NCBI GenBank assembly: GCA_024639145.1
Contig: JAHEIZ010000003.1
Coordinates: forward strand, 105,333-169,332
Direction: 5' to 3'
Source of the DNA: Actinomycetes bacterium
GTDB taxonomy: Bacteria; Actinomycetota; Actinomycetes; S36-B12
DNA length: 64,000 nt
The position numbers and the translations under genes were made by a program. Positions 1 through 23,101 of the stretch are shown piece by piece (the first letter of the stretch is position 1; every line of letters starts with the position of its first letter). The notes under the pieces were generated by a model. That model was not told the origin of the DNA. It saw nothing but the letters and a program-made list of their open reading frames with translations, and did no database searches.

Positions 1-139
1 CGCCCTGACGCACGAGCACCGTCAGGACAGGCTCGGCAGTCGCGTGCGCGCTTGCCTCCGCGGCGATGAGCTGATCTGCCGTGATGAGTCCTTCGTCAAC
101 GAGAAGCTCAGCGGCACTGCGTGTTGCCTGCTCGGTCAT
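1..139 (-). CDS. pilB: Type IV pilus assembly ATPase PilB (GspE family), N-terminal fragment, cut by window start
   Basis: The first 46 codons are visible and begin MTEQATRSAAELLVDEGLIT; the rest lies left of the window. The short helical start with 'LLVDEGLITADQLIAAE' resembles the MshEN/T2SSE N-terminal domain of PilB/GspE extension ATPases, which power pilin polymerisation at the inner membrane. The start ATG overlaps the pilT stop (ATGA), so the two are translationally coupled. The catalytic domain is not visible, so the call rests on the N-terminal pattern and on the pilT-pilMNO context. It was too short for the ORF track. Confidence 0.7.
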   Translation of the reverse strand, partial: MTEQATRSAAELLVDEGLITADQLIAAEASAHATAEPVLTVLVRQG

Positions 140-1269
140 CGTGTCCTCCCGGCGGTATACCCGGCGCGCTTGAGTGCCACGTGCAGATCGGAGACCTGCC
201 CAATGACTCCCTCGGCGTCGGCAAGGCTGATCTCGCCACCGAGCACGAGCCGCACGAGGTCTTGTTCCAGGGTGCGCATCCCGTAGTACTCACCCTCGGC
301 GATGATCTCGCTGAGCATGATGGTCTTCTCGGGATCACTGATCGCATCGCGCACTCGGCCATTGCTGGCGAGGACTTCCACCACCGGCAGACGCCCCTCA
401 TGTCGTTGCGCCGCAACGAGTCTTTGGCAGACGACTCCCATGAGCGACTCAGCCAGGGCGGCTCGCGCCTGGCGCTGCTCGCCGGCCGGGAACATGTCAA
501 TCATTCGATTGACGGCATCCACGGCGCTCTTGGCATGCAGGCTGGCAAGCACGAGGTGGCCCGTCTCCGAGGCCTGCAGTGCCGTACGCAGGGTTTCGAG
601 ATCGCGAATCTCGCCCACGAGTATGACGTCAGGATCCTGCCGCATACCCGAGCGCAGAGCGGTGGCGAAATCCTCGGTGTCGGTGTGAATCTCGCGCTGG
701 CTCACTGTCGAGAGTTGATCTCGATGCAGGAACTCGATCGGATCCTCGATAGTGAGGATGTGGCACCGACGGCTGCGGTTGACCAGGTCAATGAGCGAGG
801 CAAGTGTCGTGGTCTTGCCCGAGCCGGTGGGACCGGCCACGACGACCAGCCCGGCCTGAAGGCTCGCGAATTCGGTGACAATCGAGGGAAGCCCGAGTTC
901 CTCGATCGTGGGAACGTGCTCACGCACGTGACGCAGCACCATGCTCGCAGTTCCGCGCGTGCGATAGGCATTTCCGCGGAAGCGGCCGATGCCATCGACC
1001 TGCAGGGCGAAATCGCATTCCTGGTGCTCGAGGAATTCCTCGCGGTCCCGAGGAAGAGTCAGGGCATCGAGCACGAGCGCCTCGGCGTCGTCATTGGTCA
1101 GGGCCGGATGATCGACAGGATGCAGGCGCCCCGAGATGCGCAGGAGCGGAGGTCCGCCGACCCGGATGTGCAGGTCGGATGCCCCCTGGTCGACCGCAAG
1201 TCGCAGCAGGGCAACGAGGGCCTGCGGACCGATCACCGCGGTCGCCTCCTGAAGGCCTGACTGACTCAT
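136..1269 (-). CDS. pilT: Type IV pilus retraction ATPase PilT
   Basis: A 377-aa secretion-type ATPase of the usual PilT length. The Walker A motif GPTGSGKTTT lies near residues 146-155, the Asp-box region follows ('ILTIEDPIEF'), and the Walker B region reads 'DPDVILVGEIRD'. PilT hexamers depolymerise the pilus at the cytoplasmic membrane and drive twitching motility or DNA uptake. The gene is divergent from pilM with only 57 bp between and is coupled to pilB by an ATGA overlap. No clear Shine-Dalgarno precedes the ATG, so it may be leaderless. A GspE role is less likely, because the protein lacks the long N-terminal domain and the zinc-binding CxxC pairs of PilB. Confidence 0.92.
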   Translation of the reverse strand: MSQSGLQEATAVIGPQALVALLRLAVDQGASDLHIRVGGPPLLRISGRLHPVDHPALTNDDAEALVLDALTLPRDREEFLEHQECDFALQVDGIGRFRGNAYRTRGTASMVLRHVREHVPTIEELGLPSIVTEFASLQAGLVVVAGPTGSGKTTTLASLIDLVNRSRRCHILTIEDPIEFLHRDQLSTVSQREIHTDTEDFATALRSGMRQDPDVILVGEIRDLETLRTALQASETGHLVLASLHAKSAVDAVNRMIDMFPAGEQRQARAALAESLMGVVCQRLVAAQRHEGRLPVVEVLASNGRVRDAISDPEKTIMLSEIIAEGEYYGMRTLEQDLVRLVLGGEISLADAEGVIGQVSDLHVALKRAGYTAGRTR

Positions 1270-1326: not shown

Positions 1327-2454
1327 GTGAAGAACACCGCCGCCCCGCGACTGGTGGGCCTGGACCTGGGCTCCTCCGGGCTACGTGCGGTCGAGGCCCG
1401 TCATGGTCGTGACGGCTGGCGCATCGTGAAGGTCGCCGAGACCGAGCTTCCGGTCGGTGCCATCCACGCCGGACTCATCGTGGATCAGCCAGCAGTAAGC
1501 AAGGCCCTGAAGCGCCTGTGGCGCGCGGGCAGGTTCAGTACCCGCAAGGTGGCCGCTGCCATGAGTGATGCGGGAGTGATCACGCGCCAGGTGGACCTTC
1601 CCTGGATGCCGGCCGAGGACTTCCGGTCAGCATTGAAGTACCAGGTGGTCGATGCCCTGCCGGTGGATCTCGCGACAGTGGAGCTCGACTACCAGCCACT
1701 TTCCGAGTTCTCGGTCCCCGACGGACACGGGCACTCCACCGACATGCTCCAGGTGCTGCTCGTAGCGACGCCTACGGAAGCCGTGACCGACCTATGCGCG
1801 GCCCTCATCGCCGCACGTCTTGAACCCGTCCAGGCCGACACCTCGGCATTCGCCCTGATCCGGTCAGCGTGCGGCGGACGCTTGCAGGATTCGGATGAGT
1901 GCACGGCACTCATCGACATCGGGGCCGATGTGGTCACCGTTATCGTGCAGCAGGCCGGTCGCCCTCTCTTCATCCGTTCCATTCCCGGGCAAGGCGGCGA
2001 GATGGCTACGCTGACCGTCGCCTCAGCCATGGGGATGGATCTGGATCAGGCCCGCGACCTGGTGATCGCGACAGGGCTCAATGGCCCACCGCCCGTGATC
2101 ACTCCCGTCGCGGAGTCCAATGTCTTCGGCCTGCTCGCCAGCGCTGGGGAGACTCCTATCGACGTAACCACCTCCCGCGCGATGGCACTCATCAACCCGT
2201 GGGCCACAACTCTCGTCGGAGCAATTCGCGATTCGCTCGACTACTTCCACGCCGCGGGCGGAGCACGCGTATCCCGGCTCGTCCTGACCGGTCGCACCGC
2301 CGAGCTCAACGGCCTGTCCGAGCGCATCACCACCGAACTGCGCATACCGGTCTCACTGCTCGATCCCTTTGACGGCCTTGTGCGCGCTCGCCGTGTCACG
2401 GATGTCAACTCGCGGCCCTACGCCGTCGCCACCGGCCTGGCCATGGGGGCCTGA
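1327..2454 (+). CDS. pilM: Type IV pilus assembly protein PilM
   Basis: A 375-aa actin-like ATPase. The N-terminal phosphate-1 motif reads 'VGLDLGSSGLRAVEA' and the second actin-fold segment 'ECTALIDIGADVVTVIV'. PilM is the cytoplasmic platform that binds the N-terminal peptide of PilN and links the PilN/PilO alignment complex to the motor. The start is GTG. The gene is followed directly by pilN (1 bp apart) and pilO, the conserved MNO order. Divergence from pilT over 57 bp implies a compact shared promoter region. Confidence 0.9.
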   Translation: MKNTAAPRLVGLDLGSSGLRAVEARHGRDGWRIVKVAETELPVGAIHAGLIVDQPAVSKALKRLWRAGRFSTRKVAAAMSDAGVITRQVDLPWMPAEDFRSALKYQVVDALPVDLATVELDYQPLSEFSVPDGHGHSTDMLQVLLVATPTEAVTDLCAALIAARLEPVQADTSAFALIRSACGGRLQDSDECTALIDIGADVVTVIVQQAGRPLFIRSIPGQGGEMATLTVASAMGMDLDQARDLVIATGLNGPPPVITPVAESNVFGLLASAGETPIDVTTSRAMALINPWATTLVGAIRDSLDYFHAAGGARVSRLVLTGRTAELNGLSERITTELRIPVSLLDPFDGLVRARRVTDVNSRPYAVATGLAMGA

Positions 2455-2455
2455 C

Positions 2456-3292
2456 ATGGCGAAGAGCAAAAGGTCAGAGTCGACGCCGTTCTGGAAGATG
2501 GAACTCGGGAAGAAGAAGGCCGCCTCCATCGAGGTCGAGCATCCGGAGTTCGAACGAGCACTGCCTCGTGTGAACCTCATTCCGGTCAGCGTGCGCGAGT
2601 CGATTTCCGTGCGCAAGATCAGGCGCGGCTACGTCTTCGGTTTCCTCGGAATCCTGGTGGCAGTCACGCTCATCTGGCTCATGCAAAATGGCTCGATTCT
2701 CGAGCAGGAAGCACGTCTGACCTCGGCGCAGAACGAGAGCAATGCGATCAGCAATCAGGTCAAGGCGCTGGCGCCTGTCGAGCAGCTCTATCAGCAGATC
2801 ACCACGCAGGAAGCCTTCATCACCGACGCCGTGGCCTCGGAGGCACTCACCTCGAGCCTGCTCGAGCAGTTGCGCGCAGTCGCCGGCCCCAGCGTCGACT
2901 ACTCAAGCATCTCGGTGAGCTTCACCGGAATTCCGAAGCCGGAGCTCAGTGCACACCCCGAAACCGCCCTCAACGAATGCCCCAATGCCGACCCCTTCGG
3001 CAAGGACATCACGGTCGGATGTCTCACCTTCAGCGCGCAGGCTCCGACACGGGCCGACGTGTCCAAGTTCTTGGTTCGTGCCGAGAGGAATACCTTCCTC
3101 GTCGGGCCATATGTCACGGCGAGCACGATCACCCAGGATGCCGATGGGAACAACAAGCTGAACTTCAGCGGATCGGCGGGAATTTCGCTCGATGCCCTGC
3201 GCACCTCCTTAACCACCGAGCAGATCGCCGCCCTGCGCGAAGCCGCGCTGGCAAAGACGGGCGAAGCGGTCGCGGATCCGACGGCGAAGTGA
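2456..3292 (+). CDS. pilN: Type IV pilus assembly protein PilN
   Basis: I place the start at ATG 2456, just after the pilM stop, rather than at the ORF-track start inside pilM. This gives 278 aa. A cytoplasmic N-terminus carries the PilM-binding motif 'RVNLIP' (residues 38-43), followed by one membrane segment at about 59-77 and a coiled-coil periplasmic-side region rich in Q and E. The N-terminal cytoplasmic extension is longer than in proteobacterial PilN. It forms the alignment complex with PilM and PilO. Confidence 0.85.
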   Translation: MAKSKRSESTPFWKMELGKKKAASIEVEHPEFERALPRVNLIPVSVRESISVRKIRRGYVFGFLGILVAVTLIWLMQNGSILEQEARLTSAQNESNAISNQVKALAPVEQLYQQITTQEAFITDAVASEALTSSLLEQLRAVAGPSVDYSSISVSFTGIPKPELSAHPETALNECPNADPFGKDITVGCLTFSAQAPTRADVSKFLVRAERNTFLVGPYVTASTITQDADGNNKLNFSGSAGISLDALRTSLTTEQIAALREAALAKTGEAVADPTAK

Positions 3293-3296
3293 CGAC

Positions 3297-3998
3297 ATGA
3301 GCGAACATCGCAAGCGGAACAATCTCCTCGCCGGCGGAGCGATCCTGGCCGTTGCCACCGGGGCAACGTGGTTATTCGTGCTGTCGCCGAGACTCTCGAC
3401 AACTTCGGATCTCGAGGCGCAGACGTCCACCGTCGAGGCATCGATCATCGCCCAGCAGCATCACCTTCGCGAGCTCAACACCATGGTCAAGGATGCGCCG
3501 GAGGCTGCCCGCCGAGTGCAGAGCCTGCTCTCGCGCATGCCTCAGCAGGCCGACCTGCCCTCGCTGTTCACGCAGATCACGTCCGTCGCGAAGAAGGCGG
3601 GAATCTCGGCCCAGGATGTCTCGGCGATCACCCCATCAGTGCCGGTGCCGATCGACGCCGCGAAACAGGGCCAAGGGCTCGTCTCGGATGCGCAGCAGTC
3701 CCCCGAGCGCACTCGAGTCCAGGTTGCGAAGCTCGACCTCAGCATGACCGTCGTCGCGAATGCCGATCAGCTACAGCGCTTCCTGCGCGGCCTGGAACAG
3801 CTCGACCGTGATTTCCTGGTGACCGGGGTAAATGTCGCCGCTGATCCATCCGACCCGCAGGGCCAGAAGCAGTCAGCCACGGTCACTGCCACGACTTTTG
3901 TCTTGCAGTCGCAACTGCCAAACCTTGAGAAGAACGTGAATGACCTGCTCGCGCAGGTGAAGGCAGACTCGACTGCCGCAGTCACCTCTACGCCGTAG
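3297..3998 (+). CDS. pilO: Type IV pilus assembly protein PilO
   Basis: A 233-aa protein with one N-terminal membrane segment (about residues 12-29), a coiled-coil stretch ('LEAQTSTVEASIIAQQHHLRE') and a C-terminal ferredoxin-like region, the PilO architecture. It pairs with PilN to form the membrane alignment complex. It starts 4 bp after pilN. Its last 11 bp overlap the 3' end of the convergent minus-strand gene at 3988, so the two transcripts share antisense ends. Confidence 0.85.
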   Translation: MSEHRKRNNLLAGGAILAVATGATWLFVLSPRLSTTSDLEAQTSTVEASIIAQQHHLRELNTMVKDAPEAARRVQSLLSRMPQQADLPSLFTQITSVAKKAGISAQDVSAITPSVPVPIDAAKQGQGLVSDAQQSPERTRVQVAKLDLSMTVVANADQLQRFLRGLEQLDRDFLVTGVNVAADPSDPQGQKQSATVTATTFVLQSQLPNLEKNVNDLLAQVKADSTAAVTSTP

Positions 3999-4791
3999 GT
4001 ATCCACGTGCGAGCAAGCCGCGCGCCATCACCTGAGCCCACGCTTGCCACGAGCGTCTGACGCACGAGTGAGACAGCCTGGCCGAAGTCATCGGGTACGC
4101 CGGCGAGTCGTGTCAACGCCGCAACGGCGAGATCCCAGCGCACCTGAACCGTGAGAAGTGCGGTGTCGCCGATGGCCAGGGCTGACTCGACCAAATAGGC
4201 CTCCAGGGTGAGCATGTCGGCCTCGTAGGCGGCGGAGATCGCGCCGTTGATATCGCCGCGCACGCGATCTGCCAGTGCATCGCGCATGCGTTCCTCGGCG
4301 TCTGCCCGTCGCTGGGCGATGAAAATCCCCGCGCGCAATCCGCCGAGTCGAGCCTGACAGGCCTCGCGTAGCCGATCGGGAGTCGGTGCCTCGAACGATG
4401 CCAGGTGATCGAGGCTGCTGAATCTCGCACCGATGTCGTCGGCGAGATCCTCGTCGACCGCCTCGAGCATGCGTGAGCGCATGCTCTCGATGAGATCGCG
4501 CGCCGAGGCGAATGCACCTGCACCGCGCTCCAGGCTCTCACGCAATGCTCGGGCTAGTCGATCACCGAGTGCAAAGAAGGGGGTCTGCGGCGAGTGGGTG
4601 ACGACAACGATTCGTTCCCACGCCACGGCCTGGACAGTGGCAACATCCCCGGCCCAGGTGCAGAGGACCGCGTTCGAGATATCCCCCTGTTCCGCATAGG
4701 TCACGGACATCGGAGTGAGAACGTGCACTCGTTGGAGGAGATCGGCGTAGATCTCCTCGGCCGAGATGTCGTCGTCATGCACACCGTTCAC
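3988..4791 (-). CDS. Uncharacterised protein linked to the pilus locus
   Basis: 267 aa, soluble, acidic and helical, with no signal peptide or membrane segment. I do not recognise a family. The GTG start is supported by an upstream GGAGG. It follows the PilX-like gene on the same strand after a 51-bp gap and could be the fourth gene of the minor-pilin operon. A cytoplasmic role in pilus assembly or regulation would fit, but this is inferred from position only. Confidence 0.7.
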   Translation of the reverse strand: MNGVHDDDISAEEIYADLLQRVHVLTPMSVTYAEQGDISNAVLCTWAGDVATVQAVAWERIVVVTHSPQTPFFALGDRLARALRESLERGAGAFASARDLIESMRSRMLEAVDEDLADDIGARFSSLDHLASFEAPTPDRLREACQARLGGLRAGIFIAQRRADAEERMRDALADRVRGDINGAISAAYEADMLTLEAYLVESALAIGDTALLTVQVRWDLAVAALTRLAGVPDDFGQAVSLVRQTLVASVGSGDGARLARTWIPTA

Positions 4792-4842: not shown

Positions 4843-7059
4843 TCAGGTGATCGTGATCGTGAGGTTCTGCGCCGCACGACTACCGTCGGGCTTGGTGACG
4901 ATGTATTCGATGACTGTCTGCCCGACCGTCGAGGGCGCGAGGAATGAGATCTGGTTACCCACCACGGACGCCGTACCGACACCTGCCTTGATTGCGGCAC
5001 CCGTCAACTTGTTTCCGGCGATGTCATTAGCGAGCACGTTGTAGGTGCGCGTAGTCGAGCGCGCCTGCGTTCCCGAGTCAGCGACGAGCCCTGCGAGGGC
5101 AACCGGATCACGACGAATGCTCGTCTCGGAATACGCCTTCACCTTCCAAGGCTCATTGGAGAGCTCGAGCATGTACGGAGGAGGATCCTCCACCATGTAT
5201 CGCTGGTCGTACTGATAGAACTTCTGGTACGCCGCTCCTCCGCCGCTGACGCCGACGGGGCACCGATACTTCTGCCCGAGTGAGCCTCGCAGGTAAATGC
5301 CGCCCATATTCGACCCGTGCGTGGCGTCCTGCGAACCGAAGCACTGCGTGAGCACCACCGCCGCGAAGTTGTAGATCACGTTCTTGTTCTTCTGCCAGTT
5401 CCAGTCGGCGGTCTCGTTCGCAGAAGTGGTGTTCGCGTCAAGCGGGCGATACGCATACAGGAAGCGGTAGGGCACGAGACCAAGCATGTTGTTCGAGGTG
5501 AGCGGCGGCACCCCGTAATCCGCCGCTGCGGTGTTCGTCTTATTCGTATCGCTGGAGTCGATGACCGGACCGGTAAGGGCGATGTCGTGCTCGGTCGCGA
5601 TCGTGACTGCACCAGTGAACTCGCCCTGGACGAACACGTCACCCGCATCGCAGTCGTACCACCCCGGATCGCTGCCGAACTTTTCTGAGGGGAATCCCTT
5701 CTTGCCCGTATACGAGGAGTTGAAGAGTTCCGTCTGCTCGGCGGCGGCCGGAATGATGAATGGGTAGCTATTCACGTTGGTCGCGTTCTTCTTCAGGCAC
5801 GCCGCCGAGGTGCCGGCGACCCAACGGTTGGCGTCACCCACGGGCGGACTGAGGGTGCCCTGCACGTAGACGACTCCGTTGAAGCCAGCCGCCTTCATCG
5901 CACCGAGATCCAAGGTGATAGTCGGCTGCACGGCAGGTGTCGCGGGATTCGCATACAAGGACGTACCGCCGCACATGCTCGTGGTGGCGCGAGTCGACGG
6001 ACTCGTCACGGCCATCGTGCCGTCAGCACGGAATCGAATTCGGGTGGGCCCGGTGAAGACGCAGCCCTTATCCATCGCGAGTTCGCGCATGCGGCTGTTC
6101 GATGCGGGAATCTCGAGCACGGTGTCATAGGTCGGATTCCAGAGCTTGCCGGTCTGGCTTCCGCTGAGTTCGGTGGCCTTGTAGGTGGTTCCGGACCCCC
6201 AGGCACCGCTCGTGTTCGAGCTCACGTCACTCGTATTGATCCATCGCATGCCCTCCGGGCAGCCGGCCACGCCTGTCGTCACCGGTGGGCACGATGTCGT
6301 GATGGCACCGTCGAATACGGCCGTGGAGTTTCCGCCGGTCGACAGCGGATCAATATTCGGGATTGCGCTCGACAGGTACCAGACGTCATTGGTGTGAATT
6401 CGACCCTTGATGCGCTCGGTGTTGTAGATGCCCGCCCACCGGCAGAAGTTTGAGTTTCGGTGAATGCCATTGAGCGGGCTGGTGCCGGTCTTGCTCACCT
6501 GCCCGGCGGCAGCCCACCGTCGATTCGTGCACAGTTCGGCCGCGACTGTCGGATCGGCATAGGCACCCGGAAGGCTGGGAGCCATCGACTCGATGTCGCT
6601 GATATAGACGTAGTCGAGGGTCGAGCGCTTGGTCAGCACGGCCTCGACCGTGCGCGTGACACCGTCAACTTTGCCGGTCGAGGAGATCCGAAGCTCACCC
6701 GCGACAAGGGCGCGACTCGTGTCGATCGAGTACGTGAACTGCCCCTGACCTGCTCCGCCCGGAACATCAGCCCAGCCGGTCAATGCGGGATTCGACGAGT
6801 CAGGCGCGCGCAGGAAGTAGCGATTGTCGACGAGCAGCCGGGCGCGATAGTCATCAACGCCCGCCTCTGCGGCGGCCTGCGCGGCAAAGGATTTCTCGCT
6901 CCTGTCGGACGGACGCACAGCATTGATCGTGGCCTGCGCCAGAACCAGCGAGAGTGCCACGAGAGCCATGCACCCGATGATCACGATGATCAGGGCCGAG
7001 CCATCATCCGGACTCGCAGCGGTGCGGTGGCGCATTCGCCCGAGGACACGACTCATCAT
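4843..7059 (-). CDS. Large PilX-like minor pilin with C-terminal adhesin-type region
   Basis: The start is set at ATG 7059, where ATGA overlaps the stop of the upstream PilW-like gene. The track start at 7305 lies inside that gene. This gives 738 aa. The N-terminus has a short basic leader, then a membrane helix 'ALIIVIIGCMALVALSLVLAQ' and 'AAAEAGVDDYRARL', typical of PilX N-terminal proteins. A long cysteine-containing extracellular region follows. The end resembles an Ig/cadherin-like bacterial domain ('VLANDIAGNKLTGAAI...IEYIVTKPDGSRAAQNLTITIT'). PilX proteins are usually near 200 aa, so this one is probably a pilus-tip adhesin or a PilX-adhesin fusion. No PilY1-like propeller was recognised. 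Confidence 0.8.
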   Translation of the reverse strand: MMSRVLGRMRHRTAASPDDGSALIIVIIGCMALVALSLVLAQATINAVRPSDRSEKSFAAQAAAEAGVDDYRARLLVDNRYFLRAPDSSNPALTGWADVPGGAGQGQFTYSIDTSRALVAGELRISSTGKVDGVTRTVEAVLTKRSTLDYVYISDIESMAPSLPGAYADPTVAAELCTNRRWAAAGQVSKTGTSPLNGIHRNSNFCRWAGIYNTERIKGRIHTNDVWYLSSAIPNIDPLSTGGNSTAVFDGAITTSCPPVTTGVAGCPEGMRWINTSDVSSNTSGAWGSGTTYKATELSGSQTGKLWNPTYDTVLEIPASNSRMRELAMDKGCVFTGPTRIRFRADGTMAVTSPSTRATTSMCGGTSLYANPATPAVQPTITLDLGAMKAAGFNGVVYVQGTLSPPVGDANRWVAGTSAACLKKNATNVNSYPFIIPAAAEQTELFNSSYTGKKGFPSEKFGSDPGWYDCDAGDVFVQGEFTGAVTIATEHDIALTGPVIDSSDTNKTNTAAADYGVPPLTSNNMLGLVPYRFLYAYRPLDANTTSANETADWNWQKNKNVIYNFAAVVLTQCFGSQDATHGSNMGGIYLRGSLGQKYRCPVGVSGGGAAYQKFYQYDQRYMVEDPPPYMLELSNEPWKVKAYSETSIRRDPVALAGLVADSGTQARSTTRTYNVLANDIAGNKLTGAAIKAGVGTASVVGNQISFLAPSTVGQTVIEYIVTKPDGSRAAQNLTITIT

Positions 7060-7766
7060 GACTGTCCGTTCGCGAGGATGACCTTCTGCGCCACGGACTG
7101 TGTCGCGGAAGTACCCCCGATGGTGAACTGCACGGCACGAAGCGTGGCAATCTGCGCTGCCGTGAGGGTGCCGTTGACGGGGGGGACGAGCTCGACCATC
7201 GGCGGGGAAGGAATACCTGCCGTGGGCGTTCCGGCCTTGAAGTACCTCACGCTCAGAGTCGGCGTATTGGTCGTGCTCACCGGCACGAGCAGTCGCGTCG
7301 TGCACGTGGTATCCGCCGGCAGAGCGCGGCAGCCGTTGTTCACCGCCGCCGTGTAGATCGGGCGTCCGGTCGTCATGTCAGGTGCCCACGTCGACGTGAC
7401 GATGCCCTTCGCCGTCTTGGTCAGGGTGACCTTGTACGGAACTCGATCGGCCTTGCCGGCACCCGCGAAGGTGTAGAAGGTCACCACGGGCTGACCAGCC
7501 ACGGTGCCTGCGTAGTCGAATGAGGGCACGATCGGCGAGTTCGCATAGGGGTTGTCGGCATACCGAATGAGGCGGGATATCCATTCGGATGCGTTCTGCT
7601 GCTCCTGCTGCACGGAATTGCGGCCAGTGGTGTCACGAATACTGCGCACGCCACTGATCATGAAGATCGACGTGAGGATCATCAGCAGGCTGAAAATGCC
7701 CATCGCCACGATCAATTCGATCAGCGTGATTCCGTCGTCCTTGCCGTTCATGACGTCATGGCTCAT
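7056..7766 (-). CDS. PilW/PulJ-like type IV prepilin (minor pilin)
   Basis: 236 aa with a class-III prepilin leader: a short leader ending in Gly ('KDDG') then 'ITLIELIVAMGIFSLLMIL', with the conserved Glu at mature position 5. The PilD-type prepilin peptidase should cleave after Gly and methylate the new N-terminus. The C-terminal half has two Cys in 'CRALPADTTC'. It is coupled by ATGA overlaps to the PilV-like gene upstream and the PilX-like gene downstream, the common pilV-pilW-pilX order of minor-pilin priming operons. Confidence 0.85.
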   Translation of the reverse strand: MSHDVMNGKDDGITLIELIVAMGIFSLLMILTSIFMISGVRSIRDTTGRNSVQQEQQNASEWISRLIRYADNPYANSPIVPSFDYAGTVAGQPVVTFYTFAGAGKADRVPYKVTLTKTAKGIVTSTWAPDMTTGRPIYTAAVNNGCRALPADTTCTTRLLVPVSTTNTPTLSVRYFKAGTPTAGIPSPPMVELVPPVNGTLTAAQIATLRAVQFTIGGTSATQSVAQKVILANGQS

Positions 7767-9169
7767 GGCGTGCCACTTCCCGAGGGCGTAGCGGTCGGCG
7801 TCGGCGAGGGAGTCGGGATATCAAGGTTTGCAATCGGGAAACTCACCGTCACGCGAGCGCCCTTGGGATCAGTCGGAATTCCCGTAGGAGTCGGAGTAGG
7901 AGTGGGAGTCGGTGATGCCGACGGGCTCGCCGAAGCGACAGGGGCGGGTTCAAGCGTGACGACCTGGTTGGCCCCGGGCGCGGCAGCGGAAGTCAGAGTC
8001 CACTTGCCGTAGGGAAGCTCGACCCGAAGGACGCCCGTGGAATCCGTCGAGCCAAGGTCATACGTCGGTGGCGTCTTGCAGGGGCCCGTGGCTTCGGCGG
8101 CCGGCGTGGCGCGCACGAGTGCGTTCGCCGGCAACCCGCGCACGCGCACCGTCACTGCGTTCACAGGCGCAACGGTCTTGGCTCCCGGCGTCACCGCGTA
8201 CCAGGTGCGATTGATCGCCGTGGTTCGCGGAGCCGCGAAGCTCGCTGGGTCAGCGGCGATGCACGTACCGAGCCACGCCTGGTAGCCGCCGACCGATGGC
8301 CACAGGCTGCTGACGGTCTTGGGATATGCCGTGACCGCGACCGGGGAAATTGCCAGGGGGTCGAGTCCCATCGAGAGTGGAATCCCGGCCGGAATCGGGA
8401 AGTCGGTCGTGGAAGACGTGAATTCCATCGATGACGCGGCGGCGTACTCGAATGACATGCGCGTTGTCTGCGCGGCCACGACGGCGCTCGTGATGGTGGT
8501 GCCGTTCACGATTCGCGGAACGTATCCGCCGCGATTGACCGTGACCTGCCAGGACGCACTCGGAGCGAGCTTCGGAACGAAGACGCAGCCATCAGGGCCG
8601 GTGATGAATGTCGACGTGGCACCGGCCGCCGCCACATCACGCACCTGCAGTGTCACGCCGCTGACGGGGTTCGCGCGCTCATCTGCGACCTTGATCGCGA
8701 GCTGTCCGGTGTCGATGAGCGAGGAGTCATCACCCGGCGCAATGATCGTGTCGCTCACCTGCGGGTCGGAGATCGTCGCGCCGGAGACTTCCACGTGCAC
8801 GCGCATGTAAGCCTGGCCTGGTGCGGCAGCCTCGCACGCGTCGGTTGCCTGATTCAGTCCGACCCAATTGCTCGTGGTCGAGATCGTGAACACACCCTCG
8901 GGTGTCGTAGTCGTGCTCGTCGTGTTTCCGATGGTGATGAAGTCCGTCCCGAGCTCTCGCTGCCGCTCGATCTCCGAGCGGGCCAGGTTCGAGGCGTAGA
9001 CCCGATCGGAGTTCTCGCGCACGGTGCGAATCGCGGTGATGAGGATGCCGACTGTCGCCGTGGCCGTGAGGGCAAAGACCAAGGTCGCGACAAGGATCTC
9101 GACGAGTGTGAATCCCTCGTCACCTGACGGCGCGCCCTGCCGCTCGAGGTCGGCCCTGCTCCCGTTCAC
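7763..9169 (-). CDS. PilV-like type IV prepilin with long C-terminal extension
   Basis: The start is set at GTG 9169, preceded by GGAGGGAG, not at the track start 9430. This gives 468 aa. The prepilin leader 'APSGDEG' is followed by 'FTLVEILVATLVFALTATA' with Glu5. The extracellular part carries a carboxypeptidase-regulatory-like beta module ('LAIKVADERANPVSGVTLQV...GPDGCVF'), a second similar module near the C-terminus, then Pro/Thr-rich linkers (TPTPTPTP and PSPTPTAT). Usual PilV is 150-200 aa, so this looks like a modular surface-exposed minor pilin. It heads the operon with the PilW- and PilX-like genes. Confidence 0.82.
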   Translation of the reverse strand: MNGSRADLERQGAPSGDEGFTLVEILVATLVFALTATATVGILITAIRTVRENSDRVYASNLARSEIERQRELGTDFITIGNTTSTTTTPEGVFTISTTSNWVGLNQATDACEAAAPGQAYMRVHVEVSGATISDPQVSDTIIAPGDDSSLIDTGQLAIKVADERANPVSGVTLQVRDVAAAGATSTFITGPDGCVFVPKLAPSASWQVTVNRGGYVPRIVNGTTITSAVVAAQTTRMSFEYAAASSMEFTSSTTDFPIPAGIPLSMGLDPLAISPVAVTAYPKTVSSLWPSVGGYQAWLGTCIAADPASFAAPRTTAINRTWYAVTPGAKTVAPVNAVTVRVRGLPANALVRATPAAEATGPCKTPPTYDLGSTDSTGVLRVELPYGKWTLTSAAAPGANQVVTLEPAPVASASPSASPTPTPTPTPTGIPTDPKGARVTVSFPIANLDIPTPSPTPTATPSGSGTP

Positions 9170-9346: not shown

Positions 9347-11953
9347 ATGGCTTCCCCTGCCGGCCCGCTTCGGGCTGCCGGTCGCTGGCTCGCGCCCGCC
9401 ACCAGCGGCTCCGACCAGGCCACCTGTCACCTGCGCATCGGCGTGGTCGGCGTGGTCTTCGCCGGACTCTGGGCAGCCGCGATCATCGCCGCCTTTGGCT
9501 TCATGTACTCCGATATCGGCAACGAGATTCCCGGTCCGGATGTCCTGCTCGCCGGCATCGTCCTCGTGGCGATCAGCGTGTTCACCCCGCAGGCTCTGTT
9601 CCGCACCGGCACTGAGTCATCGACCAAGCGCATCCTGGCTTCGCCCACGCGTCCCATCGCACCGTGGAGTACGAGCACGATCTCGTTCAACGCGATCCTG
9701 GTCGGCGCCATGCTGGCGGGACTGTATGCGGAGCCTGTCATCGCCTTCCTGCTATTCAGCCTCGCCTACGTGATCCGCATGGCCGTGCTCACTCGACGCG
9801 ACGCGGTGCGGGATCCCAATTCGCGTTTCCACCAGCTCACCTCGGCATTCAGCGCGATGCTCATCGCTTCCATCGCGTACTCGATCGTGCGCCCCCTCGC
9901 TTCCGCGGTCACGCTGAACTTCTCCGTCATTCCCTTGCTACTCGCCGGGATCGTGGCCTTGTATCTCGGTCTCATCCTCAACGCGGTGGATCGCTGGGCG
10001 CGGTGCGAACGACACGGATGGGCCGCAGCACGCGACCTCATTGACGTACGACGGCTGCTCGTCGCCGCGGTCAGTGCCGCAATCGCCTGGATCGTCGCAA
10101 TGACAGGGGAAATCCTGCCTCGCATCGACGGCGACCCCACCGGCACGGCGCTTCCTGCTCTCGCTGCTCTCGGCGTATTTCTCGCGTGCTGGCTGCTCCT
10201 CTGGGCTCTCTCGATCAGCATCTGGCGCACTGAGGCCAAGCGCACTCTCTCACTCTGGCGCAGCCAGCAATCCGTGATTCTCACTCGACTCTCCGAAGGC
10301 TCGCTCGATCCTGATCTCGCCGCGAAGGCGGCACTGAACATCACGAGTCGGATGGCTGCAGTTGTCTTCGGCGCGACTCGAGTGCTGACCATTCACGACG
10401 ACGGAGATGGCTCGATCAGTCAAAGCCTGGTGCGCACTGATATCTACCCGGGCTCCCCCGAGACCCTCCCTGTCACCCCCGCCGGACGTTCAGGAATGCG
10501 CATCCCACTGAGCGTGGACAATCGCACGACAAGCAGCGTGACGATCAGCGACTGCCTGCTGCCCGGACGCTTCCTCATGCGCTCGCGGTCACTGGTCGAT
10601 GAGTTCAGCGAACTTGCGACCATTGGCCTGCTGTCACCGGAGCTGAGCCGGGGCGCGGACCGAAATGCGATTGCCTTTGCTTCCATGTTCGAGGGCAGCT
10701 GGCCGAACATGAACGCGCTGGATCAGGCCATGCTGAGCATGCGCGAGCGATTCGATCGCGCCCCGCACCTTTCCTCTCTCATTGTCGGCGTCTACGCGAT
10801 CAATGAGATCGCCGCACTGGCCGGCGGGCGACATGAGCATGCGGCCGTGTCGCACGTCATGCGCTCGACCCTCTCTTCCCCCCTGTTCAACGGAACCGAC
10901 GTCTTCGTGGCGTACGAGAGCCCCGGTCGCGTCTGGGTGGCGGTGAGCGGCGGTCCGATCATCCGCAACACGATTCAGCTGCTTCGCGACCTGCAGGATT
11001 CCCTCAACTCCTTCGGCCGCGCAGCTTCGAGCGCAACCGATCTCGAGGTGTTCGTGAGCGTCTCATTTGGCTACGCGGCACACCAGGTCGACGACCTGTC
11101 GCCCGAAGGCTTGATCCAGACCGCTCGAGATCGCCTCGCCGCCGACCAGTCCGCGCGCAATCCGCTCTCCGACCCCGACTTCAGCACCCTGGAGCTCACA
11201 CCGGAACTCTTCACTCGTACCGAGCCGACTCCCGTGACCGTCGACAGCCTGCTGGATGGCATGACGCGGGATCGGGGCACCGATGCCTTCATCACTGAGT
11301 CGCTACCTCTGCTCTCCACGGCCACTGGCGCGCACGAGGGGACACTGATCAGCGTCGGATGGGTGCGGGAATTTCGCTACTTCGACATGCGTGCGCCCGA
11401 GAACCTGCTGAAAGCAGTAAACCGCCAGCCGCATCTCGCTGCGCTGGCCGCCGAGATCTCGCTCGATGCCCTCGTATCCGAGCTTGACACGTCACCCATG
11501 TGCATGATTCGCATGCCCTCGGTGCTGCTGCACCCTGAAGCCGGCGAGCTGGCCCTGCCCAACCTGATCGTGCCCAAGCTCGATCGCATCCAGTGCCAGC
11601 GAACGGTGCTGCTCTTTGACGAAATCCCGGCCGGCGGCGGACAGACCCTGCGCATGCTCGCAGACAGAGGACTCAATATCGCCGTCACTGCGGCGGCTGC
11701 TGCATCCGCGAACTCCGGCGACCTGGCCGGTTGGTCGCGGTGGGCAATCGTGTTCCCGAGTCACGTCATGCAAGGCTCGCACGGCGTCGATGCGCTCACG
11801 ATCTCGCAGACCGCGAGTGCAGGCGCGTCGGCCGGCACACGCCTCATCGGAATGGTGATTGGCTCGATTGATGTACGAGCAGCGCAGGCCCAAGGCATCT
11901 CAGCCGTGATTGCCACACACGCCCACTCCGCAGAACGAGTAGAGCACTCCTGA
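9347..11953 (+). CDS. Membrane protein with degenerate GGDEF and EAL-like domains
   Basis: 868 aa. The first roughly 300 residues form about seven to eight membrane helices. A linker region follows, then a GGDEF-fold segment around residues 480-580 in which the signature is replaced ('GTDVFVAYESPGRVWVAVSGG'). The C-terminal part has EAL-fold hallmarks without the catalytic residues: no EAL or DDFG motif, with 'VLLFDEIPAGGGQTLRMLADRG' and 'IGMVIGSIDVRAAQAQGI' where active enzymes have catalytic segments. It is therefore probably a c-di-GMP receptor or a purely structural regulator rather than a cyclase or phosphodiesterase. Its position beside the pilus genes recalls FimX-type control of type IV pili. 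The start is ATG with a weak ribosome-binding site. Confidence 0.72.
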   Translation: MASPAGPLRAAGRWLAPATSGSDQATCHLRIGVVGVVFAGLWAAAIIAAFGFMYSDIGNEIPGPDVLLAGIVLVAISVFTPQALFRTGTESSTKRILASPTRPIAPWSTSTISFNAILVGAMLAGLYAEPVIAFLLFSLAYVIRMAVLTRRDAVRDPNSRFHQLTSAFSAMLIASIAYSIVRPLASAVTLNFSVIPLLLAGIVALYLGLILNAVDRWARCERHGWAAARDLIDVRRLLVAAVSAAIAWIVAMTGEILPRIDGDPTGTALPALAALGVFLACWLLLWALSISIWRTEAKRTLSLWRSQQSVILTRLSEGSLDPDLAAKAALNITSRMAAVVFGATRVLTIHDDGDGSISQSLVRTDIYPGSPETLPVTPAGRSGMRIPLSVDNRTTSSVTISDCLLPGRFLMRSRSLVDEFSELATIGLLSPELSRGADRNAIAFASMFEGSWPNMNALDQAMLSMRERFDRAPHLSSLIVGVYAINEIAALAGGRHEHAAVSHVMRSTLSSPLFNGTDVFVAYESPGRVWVAVSGGPIIRNTIQLLRDLQDSLNSFGRAASSATDLEVFVSVSFGYAAHQVDDLSPEGLIQTARDRLAADQSARNPLSDPDFSTLELTPELFTRTEPTPVTVDSLLDGMTRDRGTDAFITESLPLLSTATGAHEGTLISVGWVREFRYFDMRAPENLLKAVNRQPHLAALAAEISLDALVSELDTSPMCMIRMPSVLLHPEAGELALPNLIVPKLDRIQCQRTVLLFDEIPAGGGQTLRMLADRGLNIAVTAAAAASANSGDLAGWSRWAIVFPSHVMQGSHGVDALTISQTASAGASAGTRLIGMVIGSIDVRAAQAQGISAVIATHAHSAERVEHS

Positions 11954-13499: not shown

Positions 13500-14476
13500 T
13501 CAGCCGAGACCACAACTTCCTGCGATGCGCTCACATCGCCTTCCGCCGTGCGAATGATGAGTTCAGCATCGACGGGAACGTTGCGCTTGAGGATCGCCGT
13601 AGCGACTGGGCCCAGTTCAAAGTGACGGGCACCGGTGCCCACCCAGCCGATCTCCTTGTCGTTCCAGTAGACGCGATCACAGTGCTGGGGCGCGATCTCC
13701 GCACTTCCGTCGACATGCAGGATCACCAGACGTCGCGGGGGCTTGCCGAGATTCTGCACGCGCGCCACGGTCTCCTGGCCGCGATAGCACCCCTTCTGCA
13801 GGTGCACAGCCGGACCGATCCATCCGACCTCATGCGGGATCGTGCGGTGATCGGTCTCGAAGCGGAGTCGAGGGACGCCCGCCGAGGCGCGAATTGCCTC
13901 GAGTGCCCACGTGCCCGACAGGGTCTCGGCGGCATCAAGCCACGGATCGAGCTCAGTGCGAGGGATGATGACCTCACGGCCTGAAAACCCCCGTGCAGCA
14001 AAAACTTCAGGGATCACATAGGTCGGGTGATCGGGGTCCGTGTCTCTGCAGGGCTCCCACACGACCGCGAAATCGTCGGTCACATCTGCAACCTCAACAC
14101 GAAGCATGAACTGCATTCTGCGCAAGTACTCGACGAGTTCGTCTTGGGTACCGGGCTCGACGATCAGCCAGGCCGTCACTCCATCATCAACGATGTGCAA
14201 CTCGTGCTCGACGTGGCCATTGGGGCTGAGGATCAGCGCGAGTGCACTCTCACCCTGCCGGAGATTCTCGAGATGCTGCGAGGTCAGGGTGTGAAGCCAG
14301 CTGATGCGGTCTGCACCGGTGACCGTCACCACGCCGCGATTCGAGATGTCAACCGAGGTGCGGCCCTCCATGAGGGTACGTTGCTCGCGATGCGGGTCGC
14401 CGTAATGCCAGGCAACACCCTGGTCAGGGATGCCCTCAGGCGGGCGGATCGCATCACTGCGATCGAGCGAGCTCAC
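13496..14476 (-). CDS. ygfZ: Folate-binding YgfZ/GcvT-like protein
   Basis: 326 aa with the family signature 'KGCYRGQETVAR' (K-G-C-Y-x-G-Q-E) near residue 225. YgfZ proteins bind tetrahydrofolate and support maturation or repair of Fe-S enzymes. The start ATG overlaps the stop of the Fur-family gene upstream (ATGA), and the 3' end overlaps dtd by 4 bp. The neighbouring Fur-family regulator and the nitrobindin suggest an iron/redox-related housekeeping cluster. Confidence 0.9.
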   Translation of the reverse strand: MSSLDRSDAIRPPEGIPDQGVAWHYGDPHREQRTLMEGRTSVDISNRGVVTVTGADRISWLHTLTSQHLENLRQGESALALILSPNGHVEHELHIVDDGVTAWLIVEPGTQDELVEYLRRMQFMLRVEVADVTDDFAVVWEPCRDTDPDHPTYVIPEVFAARGFSGREVIIPRTELDPWLDAAETLSGTWALEAIRASAGVPRLRFETDHRTIPHEVGWIGPAVHLQKGCYRGQETVARVQNLGKPPRRLVILHVDGSAEIAPQHCDRVYWNDKEIGWVGTGARHFELGPVATAILKRNVPVDAELIIRTAEGDVSASQEVVVSAD

Positions 14477-14922
14477 AGCTCGTCGTCTCCTTCGAGGTAA
14501 TCCTTGGGCTTACCGGCGCAGTCTGCGCAAAGCCCGTGAATCGACACGTGCGCGATATCGGTCTCGAAACCGTGATCAGAGTGCAGACGCGCGACGAAGG
14601 GCTCGGCAATCTCGGAGTCGACGCTGCTGACCTTCGCGCAACGATCGCAGACAAGGTGAATGTGCACGTGCTCATCAACCGCATGGTAGGTCGGCGCTCC
14701 GTGTCCGATGTGCGCGTGGGTAACAAGCCCGACATCCTCGAGTACTTCGAGAGTGCGGTAGACGGTTGACAGATTGACGCCGGTGGCAGTGCGCTGCACC
14801 TCGATCAGGATCGCCTCGGGGGTACCGTGACGAAGGGTCTCCACCGCTTCGAGCACCAGCTGACGCTGCGGCGTGATGCGGTAGCCGTGATCGCGAAGTC
14901 GGCGATCCCAGTCGTCAGTCAT
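14473..14922 (-). CDS. Fur-family metal-responsive repressor
   Basis: 149 aa. A winged-helix DNA-binding domain (about residues 1-80, 'YRITPQRQLVLEAV', 'NLSTVYRTLEVLEDVGLV') is followed by the His-rich metal/dimerisation domain ('DEHVHIHLVCDRC') and two CxxC pairs (CDRC, CADC) for structural zinc. Fur, Zur and Nur cannot be told apart from this alone; related genes in a similar actinobacterial neighbourhood include nickel-responsive Nur. It is coupled to ygfZ downstream and overlaps the nitrobindin gene upstream by 8 bp. Confidence 0.9.
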   Translation of the reverse strand: MTDDWDRRLRDHGYRITPQRQLVLEAVETLRHGTPEAILIEVQRTATGVNLSTVYRTLEVLEDVGLVTHAHIGHGAPTYHAVDEHVHIHLVCDRCAKVSSVDSEIAEPFVARLHSDHGFETDIAHVSIHGLCADCAGKPKDYLEGDDEL

Positions 14923-15472
14923 CTGCGGCTCCCGTTGATAGCTCCATGACCTTCTGCAGGCTGGCCGCGAGGTGATTACCCATCGGCTTGCCCATAGCCA
15001 TCATGTCGAAGGTCCAGAGAAGTTTCTCGCCGACGAGGCCGTAGAGGCGTTCGCCCTCCGAGTACTCCTTCGCACTCGAGGTTGCCCCGACGCTGGTGGT
15101 CTTGAGCACTGCCTTGGCTCCGGTGATGCGCGCATTCTCCAGGCCGGTGATGGTGACCTCGCCCTCCCAGACCTCGGCGTAGCCGGTCGGATGAGCCAAG
15201 GTGAGTTCGATCCTGTTCTCCGGACGCGGACGCCAGAATCCGGTCTCAGTGGCCAGGGGCTTCACGCGCTCGCCGTCATCATCGAGCAGCCAGCTGCGGG
15301 AGATGTAGGCCATGAAGGGGCGACCATCGGTCGCGAATGAGATCTCCTGACCAAAGCGGAAGTCCTCGATACCCGGGTACTGGCCGGTGCCCACGCCGAC
15401 CCAAGTGCCCAGCAGCCATGACAACGGAAGCAACTCCTCCGGAAGCTCGCTGGGAAGAGGTGCGGTGCTCAT
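14915..15472 (-). CDS. Nitrobindin / FABP-like beta-barrel haem protein
   Basis: 185 aa. The N-terminal nitrobindin motif 'LLGTWVGVGTGQYPGI' (GxWxGxGxGxYP type) marks the ten-stranded beta barrel, formerly DUF1794. Nitrobindins bind ferric haem and NO and isomerise peroxynitrite. A conserved His that could be the proximal ligand lies near the C-terminus ('GNHLAASL'). It overlaps the Fur-family gene, and its start overlaps the preceding micro-ORF (ATGA), so all four minus-strand genes form one tight operon. Confidence 0.85.
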   Translation of the reverse strand: MSTAPLPSELPEELLPLSWLLGTWVGVGTGQYPGIEDFRFGQEISFATDGRPFMAYISRSWLLDDDGERVKPLATETGFWRPRPENRIELTLAHPTGYAEVWEGEVTITGLENARITGAKAVLKTTSVGATSSAKEYSEGERLYGLVGEKLLWTFDMMAMGKPMGNHLAASLQKVMELSTGAADD

Positions 15473-15573
15473 GAGTTGCTCCCCCGAAAGAGTCGGATGA
15501 CGATCACGATCGACACGACTGAGATTGCCGCGACCGCGACCACGAGCAGGCCCGTGTAGACGTTGTCGACCAT
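15469..15573 (-). CDS. 34-aa single-pass membrane micro-protein
   Basis: The track reports 68 aa from 15675, but that would run across the divergent DsrE start. ATG 15573 gives 34 aa: MVDNVYT, one hydrophobic helix (about residues 8-27) and a short basic tail ending FRGSNS. It overlaps the nitrobindin start by ATGA, supporting real translation. Function is unknown; it may only couple translation or anchor a partner. Confidence 0.6.
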   Translation of the reverse strand: MVDNVYTGLLVVAVAAISVVSIVIVIRLFRGSNS

Positions 15574-15592
15574 GTACGGCAGCCTACCGTTC

Positions 15593-15967
15593 ATGACGTC
15601 CGCGCCTCGAAGCCAACTGCTCATCAAGGTAACCGCAGGAAGCGACGCTCCCGAGCGCTGCTCGCAGGCCTTCACGGTGGCCGCGACCGCGGCGGCGAGC
15701 GGTGTTCAGGTGTCGCTGTGGCTCACAGGTGACGCGGCATGGTTTGCCCTGCCCGGTAAGGCCGCCGAATTCGAGCTCGAGCACTCGGCATCTCTCAGCG
15801 AGCTCCTCGATCAAGTACTGGAGTTCGGCACGGTCACCTTGTGCACCCAGTGCGCAATGCGCCGCTCGATCAATGTCGACGACGTGCTCAACGGCGTGCG
15901 TATTGCCGGTGCAGCGGTCTTCGTGGAGGAAGCCATCGCGCCCAATACGCAGGCGCTCGTGTACTGA
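15593..15967 (+). CDS. DsrE-family protein
   Basis: 124 aa from ATG 15593, chosen over the track start because it leaves room for the divergent micro-ORF. The DsrE/TusD-like alpha/beta fold begins 'LLIKVTAGSDAPERCSQAF'. A 'TLCTQCAMRR' segment carries two cysteines where DsrE/TusD proteins place their sulfur-carrying Cys. The role is likely sulfur or thiol transfer, not further assignable. It is transcribed away from the Fur/nitrobindin operon over a 19-bp gap. Confidence 0.75.
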   Translation: MTSAPRSQLLIKVTAGSDAPERCSQAFTVAATAAASGVQVSLWLTGDAAWFALPGKAAEFELEHSASLSELLDQVLEFGTVTLCTQCAMRRSINVDDVLNGVRIAGAAVFVEEAIAPNTQALVY

Positions 15968-20600: not shown

Positions 20601-22202
20601 ATGACGGGGGCCAAGCAGACCGCGGTGATCACGCCGTTCGACGAGATGTCGGGCGAAGGCGGACCACGCGCAACCCATGCAGCCTTGCACCGTGCCCTTG
20701 AATTCGTTGGCCCGCTCAGCCTTGCCGAACGTGCCCGTCAACGCGATGCCTACCTCGATCGTCACGGCATCACCTTCACTCTCGGGGAGCGCGAGCGGCC
20801 GTTGCCAATGGATCTCGTTCCGCGTCTGATCACCGGAGAGGAATGGACCCGCATCGAGCAAGGAGTCGTGCAACGACTTCGTGCGCTTGAGCACTTCCTC
20901 GCAGATGTTTACGGGTCTGGCCAAGTGCTCAAGGAGCAGATCATCCCGCGCTCCCTTGTCACTAGCTCCACCCACTTCCACCGCCAGGCGTGGGGAATCG
21001 AGCCGCCGAACGGCGTGCGCATTCACGTATCCGGCATTGACCTCATTCGCGACGAGCAAGGCGAATTCCGCGTGCTCGAGGACAATCTGCGCAATCCATC
21101 CGGCGTTTCCTATGTTCTCGAGAACCGTCGGACCCTCGCACACGTCCTGCCCGAAGTCTTCACGAACTACCAGGTGCGCTCGGTGAACGAGTATCCCGAG
21201 AAACTCCTGGAAGCACTAAGAGCCGCGGCTCCCGTCGATGTCGACGACCCGACAGTCGTCATTTTGACTCCCGGCGTCCATAACTCCGCTCACTATGAGC
21301 ATGCTTTCCTCGCCCGTCACATGGGCGTCGAACTGGTGGAGGGTCGCGATCTCTACTGTCGCGATTCGACTGTCTACATGCGCACGACTTCCGGGCCGCG
21401 CCCGGTTCACGTGATCTACCGACGCATCGATGATGACTTCCTTGACCCGGTTCACCTTCGCCCGGACAGCGTCCTGGGAGTGCCCGGCCTGATCAATGCA
21501 GCACGTGCGGGCAAGGTGTCGATCGCGAATGCAATCGGCAATGGAGTTGCTGACGACAAGGCCGTCTACTCCTATGTCCCCGACCTCATTCGCTACTACC
21601 TCGGCGAGGAGCCTGTGCTCCCGAATGTCGATACGTACGATCTGACGAATATCGAGCAGCGGGAACATGTCTTCGCGAATATCGAGCGGATGGTCATCAA
21701 GCCCAGTGATGGCTCCGGCGGCTACGGCCTCGTCATGGGTCCGTCTGCGACGGAGAGGGAGATCGTTGACGTCATTGCGGCAGTGAACGCCGACCCGCGT
21801 GGCTGGATCGCACAGCCGGTGGTCACCTTCTCCACGTGCCCCACCGTTCTCGAGGACGGGAGCATCGAACCGCGCCACGTCGATCTTCGCCCATTCGCGG
21901 TGAACGACGGCAAGAACGTTTTCGTGCTGCCCGGTGGTCTGAGCCGTGTGGCATTACCCAAAGGCAGCCTGGTCGTGAATTCCAGCCAGGGTGGCGGATC
22001 GAAGGACACTTGGGTGCTCGATGACACCGCGCCGCGCAGCGCAGCGCCCTCGATCAACGTGCCTCGCCTGACAGTCGTCGACACCGACATCCCCGAACGT
22101 GCCGATGCACCGATCAGCCATGACGATCGGATCGTTCAGCAGGAGCGTCAGCAACAGCAGTCACTTCTCTGCGTGAATCAAGAGGGCCGAGCATCATGCT
22201 GA
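20601..22202 (+). CDS. Circularly permuted ATP-grasp protein (DUF404/DUF407)
   Basis: 533 aa. Characteristic segments include 'LPMDLVPRLITGEEW', 'GVRIHVSGIDLIRDEQGEFRVLEDNLRNPSGVSY' and 'IERMVIKPSDGSGGYGLVMG', the ATP-grasp core in permuted order. The family is proposed to form peptide or amide bonds on an unknown product. It overlaps the alpha-E gene by 7 bp, and the transglutaminase gene follows, the classic three-gene unit. Confidence 0.9.
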   Translation: MTGAKQTAVITPFDEMSGEGGPRATHAALHRALEFVGPLSLAERARQRDAYLDRHGITFTLGERERPLPMDLVPRLITGEEWTRIEQGVVQRLRALEHFLADVYGSGQVLKEQIIPRSLVTSSTHFHRQAWGIEPPNGVRIHVSGIDLIRDEQGEFRVLEDNLRNPSGVSYVLENRRTLAHVLPEVFTNYQVRSVNEYPEKLLEALRAAAPVDVDDPTVVILTPGVHNSAHYEHAFLARHMGVELVEGRDLYCRDSTVYMRTTSGPRPVHVIYRRIDDDFLDPVHLRPDSVLGVPGLINAARAGKVSIANAIGNGVADDKAVYSYVPDLIRYYLGEEPVLPNVDTYDLTNIEQREHVFANIERMVIKPSDGSGGYGLVMGPSATEREIVDVIAAVNADPRGWIAQPVVTFSTCPTVLEDGSIEPRHVDLRPFAVNDGKNVFVLPGGLSRVALPKGSLVVNSSQGGGSKDTWVLDDTAPRSAAPSINVPRLTVVDTDIPERADAPISHDDRIVQQERQQQQSLLCVNQEGRASC

Positions 22203-23101
22203 GTCGCATTGCCGAATCATTCTTCTGGCTGGGCCGCTATCTCGAGCGGGCTGAGGCCACCGCGCGCATGCTGGCCGAGCATCACCAGCTCCTGGTCGAG
22301 GACCAGTCAGTTTCCGACGACGTCGCGTGCGCGGTACTACTCGATGCCCTCAGCCTTCCTCATGAATCGATTGCGACCGGTCACGATCTCGTGCGAACCG
22401 TCGTGGGCACTGAACTACTTCCCTCAACTGTGGTGGGCGCAGTGTCGGCCGCTCGCGACAACGCACGCGCGATTCGTGATTCACTCTCTGGAGACATTTT
22501 CGAAGCCCTCAACTCCGCGCACCTCGACCTCTCGCGCGGGCTGGCCCTGAGCGGCAGCCCAGGTGTGGCGCTCTACAAGGTGCTGGAACGACTCCTGGTC
22601 GTCAATGGAGTGATCGATTGGACGATGCCACGCGACGAGGCCTACCGATTCATGGGAATTGGCAAGGAGCTCGAGCGCATAGACATGATCGGTCGCCTGC
22701 TCGCGGTGCGCCACGATCAGCTGTGGCCCACGGCAGGCCCGCTCGCTACCCTTCGCGCGGCCGGTGCACTTTCCGCATTCCTGCGCACGGGAGCACCCAT
22801 CAATGGAGAAGAGGTGCGCAACTTCCTCGTGCTCGATGCGACGTTCCCCCGGTCCATGCGTAGCTGCGCCGCCGACGCTGAAGATGCGGTGCGCTATCTC
22901 GACCGCCTCGGGGTGGGCGATGGTGGGGCACTTCTGCGCGAGGTCGGCATGTTGCGTTCGTCGTTGGAGTACGCCACTCACCCCACGGCTGCAAATGTCG
23001 ATCGACTCGCGAGCGAGGCGCGACTGGCTGCGGTACGCGCATCCGATGAGGTCAATCGGGCCTTCTTCCGACAGCACGGCACGATCATCTGGAGCCATTG
23101 A
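22196..23101 (+). CDS. Alpha-E domain protein (DUF403)
   Basis: 301 aa, all helical, opening with the family signature 'MLSRIAESFFWLGRYLERAEATARML'. Alpha-E proteins always accompany permuted ATP-grasp enzymes and probably act as a scaffold or second catalytic part in making a modified peptide. Acidic and histidine residues are spread along the helices. The stop overlaps the next start. Confidence 0.9.
   Translation: MLSRIAESFFWLGRYLERAEATARMLAEHHQLLVEDQSVSDDVACAVLLDALSLPHESIATGHDLVRTVVGTELLPSTVVGAVSAARDNARAIRDSLSGDIFEALNSAHLDLSRGLALSGSPGVALYKVLERLLVVNGVIDWTMPRDEAYRFMGIGKELERIDMIGRLLAVRHDQLWPTAGPLATLRAAGALSAFLRTGAPINGEEVRNFLVLDATFPRSMRSCAADAEDAVRYLDRLGVGDGGALLREVGMLRSSLEYATHPTAANVDRLASEARLAAVRASDEVNRAFFRQHGTIIWSH

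Follow-up and report, generated by a model that had tools for sequence, protein, structure and literature searches.

The window, a stretch of 64,000 nucleotides that forms the end part of contig G000:C87, belongs to a genome of 2.5 Mb that is 95% complete. Its named relatives are MAGs, many of them under the label Candidatus Nanopelagicales or Actinomycetota. The open reading frame for an 868-aa membrane protein is found here at the end of a type IVa pilus locus, next to a minor pilin gene that is read in the opposite direction (Table 1). Since the pilin motif GFTLVE is only reached at residue 106 of a minor pilin ORF that opens at 9430, the true start of this pilin probably lies near 9169. 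A promoter scan of the gap between the two divergent genes returned nothing. The pilus genes continue upstream of the window (L123) with PilC, another PilT, PilB and a pilin.

Table 1. Genes and predicted protein domains at the pilus locus, with positions in the window.
Feature	Position	Strand	Evidence
PilT/PilU-family ATPase, second copy	136-1269	-	TIGR01420, E 7.4e-126, over cut-off
PilM	1327-2454	+	PF11104, 1.1e-41; TIGR01175 over cut-off
Putative PilN, by position	2369-3292	+	No family match; kept between PilM and PilO in other loci
PilO	3297-3998	+	PF04350, 1.3e-10
Conserved 267-aa pilus-locus protein	3988-4791	-	No Pfam or NCBIfam match
Large conserved 820-aa pilus-locus protein	4843-7305	-	Weak C-terminal Ig-like (Big_9) match
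Minor pilin	7056-7766	-	N_methyl motif over cut-off
Minor pilin, divergent from the pseudo-GGDEF-EAL gene	7763-9169	-	Pilin motif GFTLVE
Degenerate sensor-GAF-GGDEF-EAL protein, 868 aa	9347-11953	+	ORF; homologs at 36-48% identity in related genomes; purifying selection
Predicted membrane region, residues about 24-317, seven to eight helices	9416-10297	+	Hydropathy, AF2 secondary structure
Predicted GAF-like domain, residues about 322-447	10310-10687	+	AF2 of residues 296-452 and weak PDB fold matches
Predicted pseudo-GGDEF domain, residues about 455-605, motif E524-S-P-G-R528	10709-11161	+	Profile alignment, AF2, PDB fold matches, conservation
Predicted pseudo-EAL domain, residues about 632-856	11240-11914	+	Profile alignment, AF2, PDB fold matches, homolog residues

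Some other genes of this region deserve mention in their own right. The 267-aa protein is present in most of the related pilus loci examined and is a candidate new pilus component, and the 820-aa protein is possibly a pilus-associated adhesin. This one pilus cluster contains two PilT/PilU-family ATPases, the copy listed in Table 1 and one at 14396-15775 (-) of L123. PilB (15793-17472 of L123, -) carries an MshEN domain (PF05157) that, in this genome as in its relatives, seems to have lost its c-di-GMP signature residues. Elsewhere in the window, genes for a circularly permuted ATP-grasp protein, an Alpha-E protein and a transglutaminase-like protein follow in succession (20601-23952, +).

As a single query the 868-aa protein gave no match in Pfam, NCBIfam or the PDB, and a first scan of the contigs with it found nothing. 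The models PF00990, PF00563 and TIGR00254 were likewise absent from Pfam results up to E 1 for the window protein and 20 homologs, and an NCBIfam search with the window protein gave no match. The profile of the 21 homologs, by contrast, is colinear with canonical GGDEF-EAL tandems of the same order (hhalign 91%, P 9e-7), with a score of 58.7 compared to at most 25.7 over 60 column shuffles and 18-23 for reversed controls. An AF2 model built from 24 aligned sequences (mean pLDDT 80, pTM 0.51) was compared to the PDB with Foldseek, and the top fold matches were exclusively GGDEF-EAL proteins, namely DosP (2.4e-13), PA0575, MorA and LapD (3pjw, 3e-9), with FimX lower in the list. The TM-scores normalised to the target are about 0.60-0.67 against EAL domains alone, and the low whole-chain TM-scores are probably due to uncertain domain placement. 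With a GGDEF fold followed by an EAL TIM-barrel fold, the protein belongs to the superfamily by fold and not by sequence.

Hydropathy analysis showed six strongly hydrophobic segments within residues 27-295, and the AF2 model has seven to eight helices in the membrane region, the last of which extends as a long helix of the signalling type. Residues 296-452 were also modelled separately (pLDDT 78.6, pTM 0.75), and their PDB fold matches, weak as they are (best E 1.6e-3), are mostly to GAF domains. According to the models, the parts of the protein follow each other in the order membrane region, GAF-like, GGDEF-like and EAL-like domain. The first-pass annotation had described a degenerate GGDEF/EAL membrane protein at this ORF and had suggested HMM searches and structure prediction as checks. 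Its description agrees with the predicted fold and with the replaced motifs seen in all 21 homologs, but PF00990 and PF00563 remained unmatched, and its domain layout, correct for the membrane, GGDEF-fold and EAL-fold segments, had overlooked the GAF-like domain.

The catalytic and ligand-binding residues are replaced throughout the family. In 21/21 homologs the GGDEF motif has given way to another sequence (consensus E-x-P-G-R, with an invariant Gly527) and the first metal-binding Asp to A, S or E. The Arg position of the inhibitory RxxD site is occupied by A, T or N in every homolog, while its Asp is retained in 18. The same holds for the EAL half, where both the Glu (667) and the Arg (671) of ExLxR are absent in all 21 homologs, and where other residues occupy the positions aligned with the EAL Glu, DDFGTG and the catalytic Lys in 21/21 homologs; a run of small residues is found in place of DDFGTG and a hydrophobic residue in place of the Lys. 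Alignment in the global mode of hhalign lowered the scores and left the register unsteady past DDFGTG. Motifs in the C-terminal third were therefore called from model strands and manual alignment, and the register is least certain in the last third of the EAL domain. Judged by these residues, the protein would be neither an active diguanylate cyclase, which needs GG(D/E)EF and the metal-binding Asp, nor an active EAL phosphodiesterase, which needs the EAL Glu, DDFGTG and the catalytic Lys. Degenerate c-di-GMP receptors retain ExLxR in the EAL domain or RxxD in the GGDEF domain (PMC10333796). The family would fit neither the FimX type, with ExLxR in a degenerate EAL domain, nor the PopA/PelD type, with the RxxD inhibitory site in a degenerate GGDEF domain. 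As both motifs are missing in the 21 homologs, binding of c-di-GMP by either known mode is not expected.

Despite these losses the gene is not decaying but under strong purifying selection. In the closest pairs the gene as a whole has an omega of 0.05-0.10. In the pseudo-GGDEF domain omega falls to 0.01-0.03, and none of the other three parts of the gene goes below it; distant pairs were excluded owing to their high dS. Invariant columns make up 21% of the pseudo-GGDEF domain and 4-10% of the other parts, and include Y523, G527 and W530 in the replacement hairpin and G493, G494 and E497 at a helix start. Such constraint could be expected if a remodelled GGDEF pocket bound GTP, ATP or another dinucleotide and gated the pilus motors, and ATPase activity has been cited for a degenerate GGDEF domain (PMC10333796). 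We consider this unlikely, as the GGDEF motif is gone, the first metal-binding Asp is Ala, Ser or Glu, and the conservation is equally compatible with a protein interface.

A search through 166 genomes of the order turned up homologs with 36-48% sequence identity in 27, every one of them from the window's own family; two of the 27 matches are short and weak. Among the contigs of related genomes, 24 homolog loci were located. A profile search of 395 genomes sampled across the class found no homolog outside that family. The homologs are limited to one Nanopelagicales-related family of aquatic actinobacteria, and lie in or beside the type IVa pilus locus. Eight further genomes (L124-L131) have the gene, as in the window, at the minor-pilin end of this locus, adjoining the block of minor pilins or one gene off, and this adjacency stays while the outer flanks vary. 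In G061 the gene and the pilus locus are on separate short contigs. A 918-aa ORF at the expected site in G078 is spurious and has no similarity, and a weak match in G046 was not confirmed. G002 did not serve as a test for an empty site, as its contig starts just downstream of the gene.

Of the family's 85 genomes, 21 carry the gene together with PilM, 4 the gene alone, 2 PilM alone and 58 neither (Fisher P 6.5e-14, kinship uncorrected); G088 and G092 show two divergent PilM matches, which were taken as another system and not counted. In both PilM-only genomes (G032 and G078) the contig ends at the expected site of the gene. The four genomes with the gene and no PilM match (G057, G064, G070 and G077) are each only 70-88% complete, so that gaps in the assemblies can account for their lack of PilM. 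In G001 the YgfZ neighbourhood is present and holds no pilus genes. A frame-broken 3' remnant of the gene was found in G094 (L145 6660-6950) beside the same flanking gene (93% identity); this genome has no PilM match, and the scar represents a joint loss of gene and pilus locus. The linkage to pilMNO that had been anticipated on the first reading of the sequence is thus seen in many other actinobacterial genomes (21 concordant with PilM, 6 discordant), and neither the fold nor the linkage outside the window genome, the two points on which that reading was to stand or fall, is missing.

The pilus loci of sister families contain neither the pseudo-GGDEF-EAL gene nor a canonical GGDEF-EAL gene. 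The absence of the gene from those loci, its position at the edge of the cluster and its divergent transcription might also suggest an unrelated regulator that hitch-hikes on a mobile or often-lost pilus island. This is very improbable given the joint loss with a scar in G094, the near one-to-one pattern of gene and PilM across genera, and the adjacency that is conserved while the outer flanks change.

The first-pass annotation had further proposed a c-di-GMP receptor like FimX, and a dead EAL or GGDEF domain that binds c-di-GMP and signals to PilB/PilT would agree with the pilus linkage and with the fold and architecture class shared with FimX and LapD. A GGDEF protein is also present in 19/25 carrier genomes. 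A full GGDEF match and a GGDEF-EAL protein were each found once in the window genome, and c-di-GMP probably exists in this organism. Six carriers from three genera (g5, g9 and g12), however, have no match to PF00990, TIGR00254 or PF00563, namely G044 (96% complete), G061 (92%), G064 (88%), G070 (70%), G097 (99%) and G098 (97%), although these absences are not certain because the genomes appear to be MAGs. The same TIGR00254 search gave 13 matches in G091 and 2 in the window genome. Given these six carriers, c-di-GMP is not the conserved signal, barring an unknown route of synthesis. Together with the loss of the ExLxR Glu and Arg and the RxxD Arg in all 21 homologs, and with a MshEN region of PilB that, judged by eye, also seems to lack the usual Arg and Gln, this makes a receptor of the FimX or LapD kind quite improbable, and the proposal was not upheld. 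A counterpoint is that the homologs may have regained c-di-GMP binding through other residues.

Both proteins also differ from the family in other ways. FimX of Pseudomonas and Xanthomonas is a degenerate GGDEF-EAL protein acting on type IV pili, with an EAL structure that appears in the list of fold matches, but it has a REC-PAS-GGDEF-EAL architecture and retains the c-di-GMP-binding ExLxR (PMC11656802, PMC10333796). The window family is instead membrane-bound, has a GAF-like domain and no ExLxR, and occurs in genomes without detectable GGDEF enzymes. LapD is membrane-bound and degenerate as well, but it uses ExLxR to bind c-di-GMP and passes the signal to a periplasmic protease (PMC10333796, PMC3032553), whereas the membrane region of the window family has several helices and the binding motif is absent.

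The closest functional parallel we found is MshH of Vibrio cholerae, a membrane protein with degenerate GGDEF and EAL domains whose gene belongs to the operon of the MSHA pilus, a type IV pilus (PMC6123446). CsrD and MshH are membrane-bound with both domains degenerate, have ExMxR, and do not bind c-di-GMP in E. coli and V. cholerae (PMC10333796, PMC6123446). The shared fold class and position in a pilus cluster could therefore be read as a sign of a regulator that steers RNA decay as CsrD/MshH do. However, no CsrA (PF02599) was found in seven carrier genomes, that of the window included, and this makes an RNA route of that type unlikely. The family also has a GAF-like domain in place of the GAPES4-HAMP of CsrD, does not retain ExMxR and has no family match at the sequence level, and we regard such a regulator as the least probable of the readings weighed here.

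BluF acts through contact with a partner protein, and we know of no link between pili and either BluF or YdiV/RflP. These degenerate EAL proteins, which work by protein contact and not by catalysis (PMC10333796, PMC5635695), resemble the window family in this proposed respect, but have no tandem GGDEF domain.

The reading we prefer, and consider probable, is that the gene encodes a clade-specific, membrane-bound pseudo-GGDEF-EAL regulator of the type IVa pilus that acts by protein contact and independently of c-di-GMP. The membrane and GAF-like parts would sense a signal, and the pseudo-GGDEF-EAL part, chiefly the constrained pseudo-GGDEF domain, would relay it through contact with a component of the pilus that faces the cytoplasm. 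Candidate contacts are the PilB/PilT motors, PilM and the PilC platform, and control of the pilus in this way would require no c-di-GMP. We lean, somewhat less firmly, towards the broader view that the whole family has left c-di-GMP signalling and is now a dedicated control subunit of the type IVa pilus, kept even where canonical GGDEF/EAL proteins have all been lost.

Most of what is known about degenerate GGDEF-EAL proteins as pilus regulators comes from proteobacteria, and such control mostly depends on c-di-GMP. A 2019 review (PMC6916266) assigns the pili studied in actinobacteria to the Tfpc (Flp) type. The family described here, which present sequence libraries miss, is a GGDEF-EAL fold fixed to an actinobacterial type IVa pilus that persists where canonical c-di-GMP enzymes are undetected. 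It offers a clear-cut case in which to ask whether a GGDEF-EAL fold can serve purely as a protein-contact device.
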